64,000 bases of DNA from Aquirhabdus parva (GTDB lineage Bacteria > Pseudomonadota > Gammaproteobacteria > Pseudomonadales > Moraxellaceae), in the NCBI RefSeq assembly GCF_003351745.1, contig NZ_CP031222.1, forward strand, positions 1,098,207 through 1,162,206, written 5' to 3'. Position numbers and translations under genes: made by a program. Position 1 is the first letter of the stretch. The number at the start of each line of letters is the position of its first letter. A model generated the notes under the pieces. The model was not told where the DNA came from, ran no database searches, and worked only from the letters and a program-made list of their open reading frames with translations. Shown piece after piece: positions 44,925 through 51,170 of the stretch.

Positions 44925-45136
44925 GTGTCAAGCGATATTTAAAAATTGATTTTCTGTCGTATATATCTATGGTGTTAGGGATTCTTCATCAGACAACTTT
45001 GTCTATTTTGAAAGCCGATACATATATTACTGATAAGCAACCTATTCGTTTTGTAAACAACGGAGAGTATATTAAACCACTGAAACAATGGACTCTTTAG
45101 AGCAATATTTTAAACTTATAGGTCAAATTTTTTTTC

Positions 45137-47248
45137 ATGGATTCTGATATATACCACTCTATTGTTAACTACTTCCCTTATTTCTGGATTGTGCCTATTC
45201 TGCTGGCATTAATCTTCTGGCGTAAGATTCTCTGGGTCTGCGGTGTCATCATCGTTCCCGATAACATGATTGGACTGGTCACCAAAAAATTCGTGCTGTG
45301 GGGAACGCATAAAGACCTTCCTCCAGGCAAAATTATCGCGTTGAATGGTGAGGCGGGCGATCAGGTTGATGCTCTCGCATCAGGTATTCATTATGGCTAC
45401 TGGCCGTGGCAATACAGTGTGCAAAATGAACCACTCACCAAAATCTCTACGGGTTATGTCGGTATCGTTGAATCTCGCGATGGCGCACCTCTAGCCGACG
45501 GCAATATTATCGGGCTCCATGTGGAATGCGACATGTTCCAAGACGCACGTTCATTCTTGGCTAAAGGAGGGCAGCGTGGTCCACAAGCCATGGTGATTCC
45601 AGAAGGTTCGTACCGTATTAATTCTTTGTTGTTTTCCGTGACTACTGTGCCATTGACCGTGATTAATAAGAATCAAATCGGCATTGTTGAGGCCCATGGC
45701 GGTACGCCGATTCCGGTTGGACGGGTTCTGGCAAAGCATGTGAATTGTAATATGTTCCAAGACGCGCATAAGTTTTTGACCTCTGGCGGTGAGCGCGGTC
45801 CACAAATTTCGATTATTCCTAATGGACAGTATCGTATCAACCCGCGCCTGTTTTCGGTTAAGGCCGTTGATTCTGTTGATATTCCTGACAATATGGTCGG
45901 GATTGTAACAACGAAAGAAGGTGCCTCTCTACCGACGGGTGAAATCGCAGGCAAGGAAGTTCCTCGGCACAATCTGTTTCAGGATGGTCAAGCATTTATC
46001 TCGGCGGGTGGCTATAAAGGCCTGCAAGAGCAAGTCATTCTGGCGGGGCGTTATTTTATCAATCCGATGTTTGCGACCGTTGAAGTGGTACAAATGACTG
46101 AGGTTCCGATTGCCAATGCCGGTGTTGTGATTGCTTATGTTGGTGATGAGGGCAAAGACGTCACGGGTGCGGACTTTAAACATGGCAATCTGGTATCACG
46201 TGGACAAAAAGGGGTATGGGTCGAGCCGCTTGATCCGGGTAAATATCCGATTAATCCGTATACCCATAAAGTGGAATGCGTACCGACTGCGAACGTGGTA
46301 CTGAACTGGGCAACGGGTAAGTCTGAAGCTCATAATCTTGATAAAAATTTGTCAACGATTACCGTGCGTAGCTCAGATGGCTTTACCTTTAATCTTGATG
46401 TCTCACAGATTATTCATATTCCACGCGGTGATTCCCCTAAAGTAATTGCACGTTTTGGTAGTGTAGGAAACTTGGTGACACAAGTCCTAGAGCCAACGAT
46501 TGGCAACTATTTCCGTAATACCGCACAAAGTTCAGATGTGATTGATTTTCTAAAAGGTCGTACACAACGTCAGGCCGATGCCAAAGCATGTATTGGTGAG
46601 GCGTTGAATGAATACAACGTCGTTGCCGTAGATACTTTAATTGGAGATATCGTCCCGCCTGAGTCGCTAATGAAGACCCTCACTGATCGTAAGATCGCAG
46701 AGCAAGAGCAAGTGACGTTTGTGACCCAGCAATTGGCTCAAGTTGCGCGTAAAGAGTATGAACAAGCACAGGCAATTGCCGATACGCAATCACGCGTGGT
46801 AGCAGCGGAGCGCGAAGTCGAAATCTCTCAGTTCAATGCAAGCTCCATGGTGAAGAAAGCGGAAGGGGACAAAAACTCTAAGGTGCTGAATGCTGAAGGG
46901 GATGCGCGCTCTAAAACCGTGAATGCGGAAGCGGATGCCAATGTGTTATCTGTAGTTGGTAAAGCCAAAGCAGAGAACACCCTTGCTGTGGGTACAGCAG
47001 AAGCAAAGGTGATTCAAATGAAGACCGATGCTGTAGGCCAAGCCAACTATGCGTTAATTGAGGTCGGTCGGGCTTTGGCGGAGGCCAAGATTCCTCTGGT
47101 TCCTCAGATTATGGTAGCTGGTGGGGGCGGTGCAGACAATCAGGGCTCAGCAGGATCTCTGGTCAATGTCTTGCTGGCAAATCTGGTTTCTAAAGATTTG
47201 AACAAGGACACTGCTACGCTTCCGGGTGATATGAATAAAGATGCCTAA
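45137..47248 (+). CDS. SPFH (flotillin-like) protein with N-terminal module array
   Basis: A 703-residue membrane-associated scaffold. One membrane segment (about 15-36) is followed by repeated modules: starts at about 39, 103, 176, 249 and 323, so about 73 residues each. Each begins with a (I/V)-x-x-(N/G)-x-(I/V)-G-(I/V)-V strand. The three central ones contain an FQD motif (F134, F207, F281) and an RGPQ-like stretch, and end YRIN (Y159, Y232; RYFIN at 305-309). The SPFH domain follows at about 385-560 (VRSSDGFTFNLDVSQIIHIPRGDSPKVIARFGS). An Ala/Glu-rich helix (540-650) and Gly-rich tail complete it. SPFH proteins form rings and membrane microdomains. It is a single gene with no NfeD partner, followed by a terminator. 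Confidence 0.85.
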   Translation: MDSDIYHSIVNYFPYFWIVPILLALIFWRKILWVCGVIIVPDNMIGLVTKKFVLWGTHKDLPPGKIIALNGEAGDQVDALASGIHYGYWPWQYSVQNEPLTKISTGYVGIVESRDGAPLADGNIIGLHVECDMFQDARSFLAKGGQRGPQAMVIPEGSYRINSLLFSVTTVPLTVINKNQIGIVEAHGGTPIPVGRVLAKHVNCNMFQDAHKFLTSGGERGPQISIIPNGQYRINPRLFSVKAVDSVDIPDNMVGIVTTKEGASLPTGEIAGKEVPRHNLFQDGQAFISAGGYKGLQEQVILAGRYFINPMFATVEVVQMTEVPIANAGVVIAYVGDEGKDVTGADFKHGNLVSRGQKGVWVEPLDPGKYPINPYTHKVECVPTANVVLNWATGKSEAHNLDKNLSTITVRSSDGFTFNLDVSQIIHIPRGDSPKVIARFGSVGNLVTQVLEPTIGNYFRNTAQSSDVIDFLKGRTQRQADAKACIGEALNEYNVVAVDTLIGDIVPPESLMKTLTDRKIAEQEQVTFVTQQLAQVARKEYEQAQAIADTQSRVVAAEREVEISQFNASSMVKKAEGDKNSKVLNAEGDARSKTVNAEADANVLSVVGKAKAENTLAVGTAEAKVIQMKTDAVGQANYALIEVGRALAEAKIPLVPQIMVAGGGGADNQGSAGSLVNVLLANLVSKDLNKDTATLPGDMNKDA

Positions 47249-47294
47249 ACGAGTCTGATGACTCTCATGATCTAGTTTATATGCGTCTGATTAA

Positions 47295-47326
47295 GAGCGC
47301 TCTGTTTGATGGCAGAGCGCTTTTTT
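47295..47326 (+). terminator. Terminator after the SPFH gene
   Basis: AGCGCTCTG (47296) pairs with CAGAGCGCT (47313) around an 8-base loop and is followed by six Ts. It ends the SPFH unit before tauA. Confidence 0.9.
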
Positions 47327-47520: not shown

Positions 47521-48525
47521 TTGAAATGCAGTAAGTTTTATTTTCTCCCTCTGCTTAGTTTAGTTCTTGCGTCATCAGGTTGTTCTCAATCAGAAAAATT
47601 ACATACTGTTGTCGCTTATCAAACGGGCGTTGATCCTTCAAAAGTAGCTCAAGCTGAAGGCTTGTATGATAAAGAAATAGGCTCGTCTGTGGAGTGGAAA
47701 CGCTTCAATAGTGGTGCAGAAGTCATTAATGCACTGGCATCAGGCGATGTCGATATTGGTAACTTGGGGTCAAGTCCTTTAGCCGCGGGGGCATCGCGGC
47801 AGTTGGCGATTGAGGCCTTTATCGTCTCTGCAGAAATTAAAGGTGCTGAAGCTTTCGTCGTTCGAACCGGAAGCGGGATTAATAGCCCCGCAGATCTCAT
47901 CGGTAAAAAGATAGCAACGCCGTTTGTTTCTACATCGCATTACAGCTTATTGGGTGCTCTGCAACATTGGCAGATTCCGACTTCTAAAATTACCTTGATC
48001 AACCTCAATCCATCAGAAATTAATGCAGCATGGCAACGTGGAGATATTGATGGTGCGTTTGTGTGGTCGCCTGCACTAGCAGAGATTAAGAAAACGGGGC
48101 ATGTACTGACGAGTGCTGATGAGGTGGGGTCTTGGGGACATCCGACTTTTGAGGTTTGGGTGGTGCGCAAAGACTTTGCAAAAGCACATCCAGAAATCGT
48201 CTCAAAATTTGCCAAGGTGACTTTAGAGAGTTTTGCCAATTATAAGCAGCACAAAAGCGAGTGGACAGCCCAGTCTGCACCAGTCGCTGCAATCGCGAAG
48301 CTAACGGGCGTTAAGCCCGAGGATATCCCGACCTTACTTGAAGGAGCGAGTTATCCGGATTTGCAGTCTCAATTGAGCCCCCGCTTACTTGCCAAAGGAA
48401 CCGCCCAAGACATCGCAAAAACAGCAAATTTCCTAAAATCACAAGGCATGGTGAATGAAGTGCTAAGTGACTATTCACCCTATGTCAGTACGCAATTTAT
48501 TCAGTCCATCATTGCCCAAAAATAG
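47521..48525 (+). CDS. tauA: Taurine/sulfonate ABC transporter substrate-binding protein
   Basis: Lipoprotein that captures taurine or related sulfonates in the periplasm; 334 residues. The signal ends in LASSGC (lipobox). Typical TauA/SsuA sequences are [42 protein letters not shown] and [19 protein letters not shown]. The ATGC-like start is absent: the frame opens at a TTG without a clear ribosome-binding site, but the signal peptide fits only with it. It leads the tauABCD operon. The WSPALAEI region (FVWSPAL) follows the taurine-type pattern. Confidence 0.9.
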
Positions 48526-48536
48526 AAGGATTGCAG

Positions 48537-49337
48537 ATGTCCACTTTGGTTATCGATCAAATTAGCGCGACCTATCCGAATAGTACACAGCCCGTATTAT
48601 CGGATATTTCACTTTCCCTCTCTGCGGGTGAGTTACTCGTGGTCTTGGGTGCCTCGGGGAGCGGAAAAACGACCCTACTTAATTTGATCGCAGGATTTAT
48701 CGAGTCCTCTAAGGGGAAAATTCTGCTCAATGATCGACCTGTGAAAGGACCAGGAGCCGACCGCGGCGTGGTGTTCCAAGATGATGTCTTACTTCCTTGG
48801 CAGGATGTGCAAAGTAATGTTGCCTTTGGTTTACAGCTAGCAGGAGTGCCACTACAGGCTCGGCTGGCGAAAGTACAAGAGATTTTAAAGCGGGTGAGTT
48901 TAGAGGGTTTTGCAAAGCGCAAAGTATGGGAGCTGTCTGGAGGACAGCGGCAACGCGTGGGGTTGGCGCGTGCCTTGGCATCTGATCCTCAAGTATTGCT
49001 ATTGGATGAGCCCTTTGGTGCTTTGGACGCTTTCATTCGTGAGCAGATGCAGTGTTTGCTGCTGGATGTATGGGCTGACACGCATAAGCCTGTCTTTCTG
49101 ATCACGCATGATATTGAAGAGGCGGTTTTCTTGGCAACTGACTTAGTCATTCTTGCCCCCTCGCCACGGGGTATCGTTGAGCGAATTTCACTGGATTTTT
49201 CTAAGCGTTTTATTGCGGGCGAGTCAGCACGATCGATTAAGTCCGATCCGCAGTTCATTGCTGTGCGTGAGCATGTGTTGCAGCGTGTGTTCGAGCAGCA
49301 TGTGCATACGTTAAACAATCAATCTGTTTCAGTTTAA
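48537..49337 (+). CDS. tauB: Taurine ABC transporter ATP-binding protein
   Basis: ATPase of the taurine importer, 266 residues. It has the Walker [13 protein letters not shown], the Q-loop [23 protein letters not shown], the signature [15 protein letters not shown], Walker [12 protein letters not shown] and H-loop [26 protein letters not shown] lies six bases before the chosen ATG; a TTG two codons earlier is unlikely. The gap to tauA is 11 bases and to tauC 12 bases. Confidence 0.95.
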
Positions 49338-49349
49338 TCGAGAAGCCAC

Positions 49350-50207
49350 ATGAACAGACCGATAACAGATACGCAAGTTGCTCCTCATGTTGAAGTTGCG
49401 CTTCAGACCACGACCAAGAAAAAGCCAAAAGTATTGAGTTTACGATTGAATACTTTATTGATAAGTGCAGCGACTCTGTTGGGGGTACTTCTGATTTGGT
49501 GGCTTATTACGACACTGGGTTGGATTAAGCCATTATTTTTACCGGCACCCTCAACGGTATTGGCTAGATTCCTGAGCTTATCCAGCGATGGTTATCTGGG
49601 CACAAGCCTCTGGCAACATACAGGAGCGAGTCTAAGACGGATCAGTTTGGCTTTATTGGCGGCGATCCTGATCGCGGTGCCAACGGGTATTGCGATCGGT
49701 CAGAGTCGTGTAATTCGCGGCATCATCGATCCGTTGGTTGAGTTTTATCGGCCTATTCCGCCATTGGCATATCTGCCTTTGATTGTCATCTGGTTTGGAA
49801 TTGGTGAGTTTTCCAAGATTTTACTGATCTATCTGGCTATTTTTGCTCCTATCTTCATTGCAACTTCGACGGGTGTGCTTGCTGTTGATCAGAAGAAATT
49901 ATTAGCGGCAAAGTCCTTAGGTGCGACTCCATCTCAGCTCATTCGATATGTGGTTATCCCGAGTGCGTTGCCACAAATTTTGACCGGGATCCGTATTGGT
50001 CTAGGTGTGGGGTGGTCCACGTTGGTAGCGGCTGAGCTGATTGCTGCGACGCAAGGACTCGGGTTTATGGTCCAATCTGCCGCGCAGCTATTGCAGACTG
50101 ATGTCGTCATCGTCGGTATTTTGATTATTGCCATCATCGCAGTGGCGCTGGAGTTGGGGTTACGGGCCTTGCAAAAACGCCTAGTGCCTTGGGATCACAA
50201 TCCATAA
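49350..50207 (+). CDS. tauC: Taurine ABC transporter permease
   Basis: Membrane subunit of the importer, 285 residues with about six transmembrane segments after a polar N-terminal tail of some 35 residues. It has the ABC permease (EAA) loop AAKSLGATPSQLIRYVVIPSALPQILTGIRIGLGVGWSTLVAAEL. PLVEFYRPIPPLAYLPLIVIWFGIGEFSKI is the usual TauC/SsuC sequence. It is the third gene of the operon. Confidence 0.95.
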   Translation: MNRPITDTQVAPHVEVALQTTTKKKPKVLSLRLNTLLISAATLLGVLLIWWLITTLGWIKPLFLPAPSTVLARFLSLSSDGYLGTSLWQHTGASLRRISLALLAAILIAVPTGIAIGQSRVIRGIIDPLVEFYRPIPPLAYLPLIVIWFGIGEFSKILLIYLAIFAPIFIATSTGVLAVDQKKLLAAKSLGATPSQLIRYVVIPSALPQILTGIRIGLGVGWSTLVAAELIAATQGLGFMVQSAAQLLQTDVVIVGILIIAIIAVALELGLRALQKRLVPWDHNP

Positions 50208-50276
50208 GTCCAGTCATTTGGATGTCTCATTTTCAATAAGGGGTTGTCCTTCTCCCCAATGTTCTCGAGTTTTGTT

Positions 50277-51170
50277 ATGTCTTCTTTTACAGCACCTATT
50301 GCTTCTGCTAGCGCCTCTACGCCCATTGGTATTCAGGTCATACCCTTGAGCCCCGCTATCGGTGCGATCATTGAGGGTATTCACCTGAGTCAATCTATTA
50401 GCCATGAGATCAAACAGTTTTTAGAGCAAGCACTGGTTGAACATCAGGTTCTTTTTTTTAGAAATCAGCCTTTGACACCTGCGGAGCATTATCGTTTTGC
50501 GAGAAATTTTGGGGATCTGCATATTCATCCGATATATCCCAATGTGCCTGAGCAGCCCGAAATTTTGATCTTGGATACGGAGCGAAATGATTTACGAGAT
50601 AATGCACTCTGGCATACCGATGTTAGCTTTTCGGCAACACCCCCTTTAGGATCAATATTAAGTGCAAAAAAAATTCCGCCAATCGGTGGAGATACGCTGT
50701 GGGCGAGTGGTACTGCAGCTTATGCTGCTTTATCTCCTGCCATTCAACAATTGCTGACTGGTCTAACAGCGCAACATGATATTGCCAAGTCTTTTCCAGC
50801 AGATCGCTTTGCAACCAATCCTGAGGAGCGTAGTCGCTTTGAAGCTGCACTGAAAAAGAATCCACCAGTGACACATCCTGTAGTTCGGACTCATCCGATT
50901 TCAGGTCTACCAGCACTCTTTGTTAATGAGGGTTTTACCACCCGAATTAACGAGCTTTCCGACCCTGAAAGCCAAGCATTATTGGCATTCTTGTTTCAGC
51001 ATAGTCAACGACCTGATTTTACCGTCCGCTGGCGCTGGCAGAAAGATGATGTGGCTTTCTGGGATAATCGAGTGACTTTTCATTATGCTATTGATGATTA
51101 TCGTCCTCAGCATCGCGTCATGCAGCGTGCGACTGTCAACGGCGATAAACCGTATTTTTTAGAAAGATAA
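50277..51170 (+). CDS. tauD: Taurine dioxygenase TauD
   Basis: Fe(II)- and 2-oxoglutarate-dependent dioxygenase that breaks taurine into sulfite and aminoacetaldehyde so the sulfur can be used. The first iron ligands are in LWHTDVSF (His and Asp), and the C-terminal His is in the [17 protein letters not shown] region, with the 2-oxoglutarate Arg just after. The body tracks E. coli TauD ([47 protein letters not shown]). The start is uncertain: I use an ATG giving 297 residues; starts 6 and 11 codons earlier exist but add a non-conserved Ser-rich piece. It closes the tauABCD cluster, 69 bases after tauC. Confidence 0.94.

Follow-up and report, generated by a model that had tools for sequence, protein, structure and literature searches.

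Are walls of the kind that form the eukaryotic vault confined to that particle? The question is raised by a single gene in a 64,000-nucleotide stretch of the Aquirhabdus parva genome (assembly GCF_003351745.1, contig NZ_CP031222.1, positions 1,098,207 to 1,162,206; hereafter the window). The gene encodes a 703-residue protein of the SPFH superfamily, which an original prediction, made from the letters alone, described as five tandem modules of about 73 residues ahead of one SPFH domain, an arrangement recalling the major vault protein (MVP). One published account treats MVP domains as a feature of the vault alone (PMC13100048), and a 2021 review counted band 7 proteins among the candidates for a prokaryotic relative of MVP but judged the data inconclusive (PMC7916137). 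Our analysis partly supports the architectural comparison, which predicted structures strengthen at the level of fold, and we read the protein as a member of the SPFH superfamily bearing a wall of vault-type modules.

Tandem modules and the SPFH domain

The modules are real and begin where they had been placed, at residues 39, 103, 176, 249 and 323. Comparison of residues 31–400 with themselves scored 146 at an offset of 73, 88 at 74 and 80 at 147, far above the 20 ± 6 (maximum 49) obtained from 300 shuffles. A hidden Markov model (HMM) of the module matched residues ~103–173, 176–245 and 249–321 at E ~1e-32 each and, weakly, part of module 5, while profile–profile comparison joined module 2 to module 4 (E 6e-24), to module 1 (E 8e-10) and to module 5 (E 4e-6). 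Within the protein, modules 2 and 3 are 49% identical, modules 2 and 4 40% and modules 3 and 4 37%, the remaining pairs falling at 25–35%. At the level of profiles, all five modules are related. Each is under purifying selection, with nonsynonymous divergence (dN) of 0.07–0.25 against near-saturated synonymous differences (pS) of 0.68–0.91 relative to 80%-identical homologues of the Undibacterium type.

The number of modules standing ahead of the SPFH domain was, however, put one too high. Pfam finds only Band_7 (PF01145) in the protein, at residues 354–540 (E 2.8e-28), a match which starts inside module 5 and which recurs in 53/53 family members. Structures of prohibitin, erlin and flotillin align from residue 286–287 of model 2 (see below), equivalent to protein residue 319–320. 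Because ordinary SPFH structures, with few exceptions, align only from about residue 320, module 5 is read as the ordinary first beta unit of the SPFH domain, and modules 1–4 as additional to it. The Z-scores assigned to model 2 by VIA-align (prohibitin 16.6, erlin 15.6, stomatin 12.6) exceed that of MVP, and alignments of this strength with SPFH structures establish the SPFH part as genuine. Since module 5 is the first SPFH unit and is related to the other modules, the latter probably arose by tandem duplication of that unit.

Predicted fold of the modules

Structure prediction, proposed at the outset as a check that the modules are repeated domains, returned repeated beta folds. These are present in model 1 (AlphaFold2 on our first alignment), whose predicted local distance difference test score (pLDDT) is ~83–95 over most of residues 70–320 and whose SPFH part is poor. 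Model 2, covering residues 34–574 and built from a more diverse alignment including phage members, has an overall pLDDT of 84.8 and a well-predicted SPFH part. Model 1 was used for residues ~152–193, since model 2 lost confidence in the region of module 3.

When model 1 was searched without bias against 350,542 PDB chains in Foldseek, every one of the 14 matches at E<0.001 was MVP (ranks 1–14, E 3e-8 to 7e-5), the next match lying at E 0.23. Crystals holding repeats R1–R7 only, without the shoulder, were among them (3gf5, 3gng and 3gnf). VIA-align gave 12 MVP entries for the same model at Z 7.8–11.3 over 231–269 residues, and everything else at 5.8 or below. With model 2, MVP took Foldseek ranks 1–3 (E ~2e-9), and VIA-align laid model residues 2–541 co-linearly onto MVP 270–713, through repeats, shoulder and cap helix (352–353 residues, root-mean-square deviation (rmsd) 6.4–7.2, Z 10.4; 4v60 and 6bp7). 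Ribosomal proteins reach Z ~9 with this model over 90–100 residues, so that Z alone is not specific for the SPFH core; we base the argument for vault likeness on the module region and on the long co-linear match instead. In these models, the modules share the fold of the MVP repeats, and the resemblance to MVP, originally put forward as one of architecture, extends to predicted fold, with no relation at the level of sequence.

In a library of viral structures, the best matches were ordinary SPFH proteins. Two Harvfovirus SPFH proteins in BFVD, A0A3G5A4K1 (802 residues) and A0A3G5A5B7 (507 residues), gave 676 and 415 aligned columns, far beyond an SPFH domain alone, and may carry similar modules.

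A proposed membrane-anchored half vault

We consider it probable that the protein works as a membrane-anchored half vault, a ring with an SPFH cap and a beta wall that is taller or lower according to the number of modules. Many copies would assemble side by side into the ring, which their N-terminal transmembrane helices would fasten to the membrane on its cytoplasmic side. Stacked into a vertical wall, the beta modules would play the part of the MVP repeats, with the SPFH domain as shoulder and the top shut by the long C-terminal helices, so that a chamber would be enclosed above a patch of membrane. Module number would then set the distance from cap to membrane, with one additional storey in the Burkholderiales type described below. 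The role, by default, may be that of other SPFH cages, namely the segregation of membrane proteins or lipids. As for orientation, hydropathy peaks at residues 9–41, with nothing above 1.6 beyond residue 40, and the hydrophobic N-terminal helix is kept across an alignment of 53 family members. Because this single transmembrane helix is followed by positive residues, the positive-inside rule suggests an N-out protein with its body in the cytoplasm.

The repeats, the domain order, the predicted folds, the conservation across the family and the duplication of a module are the established ground for this proposal. A wider one, to which we give somewhat less than even credence, is that walls of the vault type also exist outside the eukaryotic vault: a widespread but overlooked SPFH family of bacteria and huge phages may build membrane-anchored half vaults from modules duplicated out of SPFH, showing a possible step from an ancestral SPFH half cage to the vault.

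Several results weigh against the half vault. Firstly, the Pfam Vault and MVP_shoulder models match neither the protein nor its modules up to E 10, and profile comparison of modules with MVP repeats gave no signal (hhalign against human plus bacterial MVP, where the best alignment covered 22 columns at E 0.07). Secondly, rmsd to MVP is 6–7 Å along a long chain, and the correspondence of repeats is ambiguous, model 1 falling on repeats near the N-terminus of MVP and model 2 on those beside the shoulder. Model 2 is moreover of low confidence at protein residues ~152–193, a 73-residue gap probably being misplaced in its alignment. Thirdly, the ring is drawn from predicted single-chain models. Finally, no neighbouring gene is conserved across 80 loci of the family, which lends support to no specific function in bacteria.

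Because no similarity in sequence could be detected between the modules and the repeats of MVP, convergence is possible, in which case the protein would be a flotillin-like scaffold bearing independent spacer or ligand-binding beads, with no vault-like wall. The units differ, too: a module runs to ~73 residues and contains a small FQD helix, whereas the nine repeats of MVP span approximately its first 520 residues. We nevertheless regard convergence as unlikely. No other tandem beta protein came ahead of MVP among the PDB chains searched, the likeness to MVP runs on in order through the SPFH domain and the helix, and the modules are homologous to module 5, an SPFH unit whose copies in SPFH rings lie packed against one another laterally. 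A profile of the whole family, compared with an MVP alignment including bacterial MVPs, matched it only within the SPFH core, over ~43 residues (E 5e-4 and 2.5e-5; the human MVP sequence was confirmed against the PDB). Given that the two SPFH cores are related, and that the modules probably originate from a unit of SPFH, modules and MVP repeats may share a common descent.

Distribution of the family and variation in module number

A scan of GTDB species genomes turned up relatives at 137 loci, and 80 of these loci were retrieved. The relatives belong to Burkholderiales (Undibacterium, Roseateles, Pelomonas), Acidobacteriota and Bacteroidota (Pedobacter, Chitinophagaceae), with single members elsewhere; some members that stand alone in their phylum come from metagenome-assembled genomes, whose binning may be wrong. 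More distant members, at 25–37% identity, occur in Rhizobium, Paraburkholderia and Streptomyces plasmids and in Vibrio phages. The gene is single-copy in its own genome. Among 58 genomes searched, four matched, namely its own and three with weak or partial matches, and none of the other 57 relatives held a full-length copy; across 299 genomes of the phylum, only five matched at E 1e-40, its own included. The family is patchy in bacteria, and it is present in huge phages. The genome of one locus (L022) contains a second, divergent member, a 579-residue open frame at G365:C93:23391-25088. No conserved bacterial operon emerged from the 80 loci, the nrdAB and aguA neighbours in Pedobacter being synteny within the genus.

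Most of the 53 aligned members carry modules 1, 2, 4 and 5, to which the Burkholderiales type, including the window protein, adds residues 176–248. The module HMM confirms this, recognizing three full modules in the Burkholderiales type and two in almost every other member. In a tree of modules, the extra module 3 groups with module 2 and not with module 4, and a Streptomyces member shows a separate duplication of the module 2 type. As judged from this tree, the Burkholderiales type gained its fifth module by duplicating module 2. Natural variation in module number therefore provides a built-in test of chamber height, and cultivable hosts exist in Undibacterium, Roseateles and Pedobacter.

Phage members and NAD+ contexts

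A phage genome of 642 kb encodes a copy 48% identical to the window protein. In IMG/VR there are 86 related loci, and the contigs that bear some of these measure 300–508 kb. The viral origin of twelve is firm, since a gp23-type major capsid gene lies close by. Such members raise the question of what purpose a membrane chamber would serve during infection. In one huge-phage lineage the family gene adjoins genes for NAMPT/NAPRTase, NADAR, phosphoribosyl pyrophosphate (PRPP)-synthetase-like and macro-domain proteins, at up to 25 loci each. Loci of this lineage (L109, L111, L118, L124, L135, L149, L163 and L172, with related IMG/VR loci) also carry RelA/SpoT-like HD and nucleoside deoxyribosyltransferase genes, and recall phage clusters for reconstitution of nicotinamide adenine dinucleotide (NAD+).

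A separate context is found on the Streptomyces clavuligerus plasmid NZ_CP065235.1 (L187:1726-5728), where two TIR genes stand directly before an SPFH gene of the family, itself encoding three full modules, all on the same strand and with gaps of 0–33 bp; this cluster is possibly a defence operon.

These neighbourhoods, together with the report of a TIR-like NADase inside vaults, which also bind ADP-ribose (PMC13174449), might be taken to mean that the family acts in phage–host conflict, as NAD+-linked defence or counter-defence. We consider such a role improbable. On clustering at 80% identity, the NAMPT, NADAR and PRPP-synthetase loci all fell into one cluster of 47 of the 83 viral loci, and an NAD-type neighbour of any kind occurred in 2 of 29 clusters; coming from a single cluster of related sequences, the phage context is not independent evidence. 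The TIR context was seen in S. clavuligerus only, and the window copy has neither kind of neighbour, PADLOC detecting no defence model in the window. With nearly all of its loci drawn from one phage lineage, the NAD+ link was rejected as a function and kept as a lead only.

Relation to true MVP

Least credible of all is that the protein is a true bacterial MVP orthologue, or a direct descendant of the MVP ancestor, forming closed vault particles: its predicted fold matches MVP and MVP genes do exist in bacteria (at L179, in a cyanobacterium, the encoded protein shares 57% identity with human MVP), but the Vault and MVP_shoulder models pass it over, profile comparison reaches only the SPFH core, a membrane helix stands at the N-terminus, where the two 39-mer halves of the vault join, and by sequence its SPFH part is nearer to QmcA, flotillin and prohibitin than to MVP. 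As its modules are without sequence similarity to MVP repeats, the protein is vault-like and not a member of the MVP family. Three further loci (L180–L182) encode divergent MVP-like proteins (24–27%), and a fourth (L183) a 481-residue open frame with an MVP shoulder match. Pfam PF01505 matched nothing at all in 296 Bacteroidota genomes, an uninformative search, and PF11978 gave nothing above its cut-off in 38 genomes of the order.

The gene and its surroundings

The layout of the gene is given in Table 1. It is flanked by a divergent MarR gene on one side and by a likely terminator of its own on the other, and appears to be transcribed alone. The neighbours identified in the window are OsmC, MarR, ABC transporter, TauD and TonB receptor genes, with no NfeD-type partner gene among them. 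Positions 47521–51170 hold an ordinary sulfonate/taurine-type uptake set (substrate-binding protein, ABC ATPase, permease and TauD dioxygenase), followed by the TonB receptor. Recent transfer was considered and not retained: despite the lack of a full-length copy in the relatives searched, composition gives it no support, the guanine–cytosine content of the gene (GC 0.476; 0.45 at third codon positions, GC3) being inside the range of the window.

Table 1. Features of the SPFH gene and its flanks, in window positions (residue numbers in brackets).
Feature	Position	Strand	Basis
Whole gene, 703-residue SPFH protein with tandem beta modules	45137..47248	+	Open reading frame coordinates and length verified exactly
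N-terminal transmembrane helix (9–35), then R/K	45161..45241	+	Hydropathy; model helix 2–26 and 28–34; putative topology
Module 1 (39–102), divergent	45251..45442	+	Profile match to module 2, E 8e-10
Module 2 (103–175), canonical 73-residue unit with FQD helix	45443..45661	+	Module HMM 3e-32; model pLDDT ~90
Module 3 (176–248), extra Burkholderiales-type module, copy of module 2 type	45662..45880	+	Gap in four-module relatives; module tree
Module 4 (249–322), canonical	45881..46102	+	Module HMM 1e-32
Module 5 (323–385), N-terminal beta unit of SPFH domain (SPFH1)	46103..46291	+	Prohibitin, erlin and flotillin structures cover from ~320; module 2 profile match E 4e-6
Remaining SPFH/Band_7 domain (386–505), MVP shoulder equivalent	46292..46651	+	Pfam Band_7; structure alignment
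Long Ala/Glu-rich helix (506–650), corresponding to the coiled coil of flotillin and the cap helix of MVP	46652..47086	+	Models; flotillin-2 profile match
Gly-rich C-terminal segment and stop, resembling flotillin-2 C-terminus	47087..47248	+	Alignment
Candidate promoter, weak consensus match, no better than shuffles	44999..45028	+	
Likely intrinsic terminator, 14-pair stem and T tail	47293..47324	+	

Comparison with known systems

Membership of an already described SPFH subfamily with a known role had been named as a finding that would undo the proposal. Databases call the relatives only 'flotillin family protein' or 'SPFH domain-containing protein', and no description of a tandem-module SPFH architecture was found in the open-access literature on SPFH and MVP, bacterial SPFH repeats, or SPFH and flotillin in jumbo and huge phages. 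Hinderhofer et al. (2009) distinguished 12 prokaryotic SPFH subfamilies, whose giant members owe their size to an enlarged coiled coil (PMC2636767); their text, with which we compared by description only, describes no tandem N-terminal beta modules. The window protein probably belongs to one of their small, undocumented subfamilies 6–12, or falls outside them.

Among characterized proteins, flotillin-2 aligns with the SPFH domain, the long Ala/Glu-rich helix and the Gly-rich C-terminus. Flotillins of the FloT and YqiK types, however, have no modules preceding the SPFH domain, and the NCBIfam FloT model scores the window protein at 18.4 bits against a cut-off of 700. QmcA, prohibitin, erlin and HflK/C share with it the succession of N-terminal transmembrane helix, SPFH domain and helix, but their membrane helix lies directly before the SPFH domain, whereas ~290 residues of modules intervene here. 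SPFH complexes with solved structures are membrane-attached half cages, from which the vault differs by possessing MVP repeats and lacking an anchor (PMC13100048, PMC12624060).

With MVP the protein has in common the order of its parts, tandem beta repeats being followed by an SPFH-like shoulder and a long cap helix, as well as the predicted fold of the repeats. It differs in its 73-residue period with a small helix, in its N-terminal transmembrane anchor and in the number of its units, four extra modules and module 5 as compared with the nine repeats of MVP (PMC13347060). The family joins both halves of the comparison, a membrane anchor such as ordinary SPFH proteins have and stacked modules whose predicted fold is that of MVP repeats, and offers a concrete intermediate architecture between membrane SPFH proteins and the vault.
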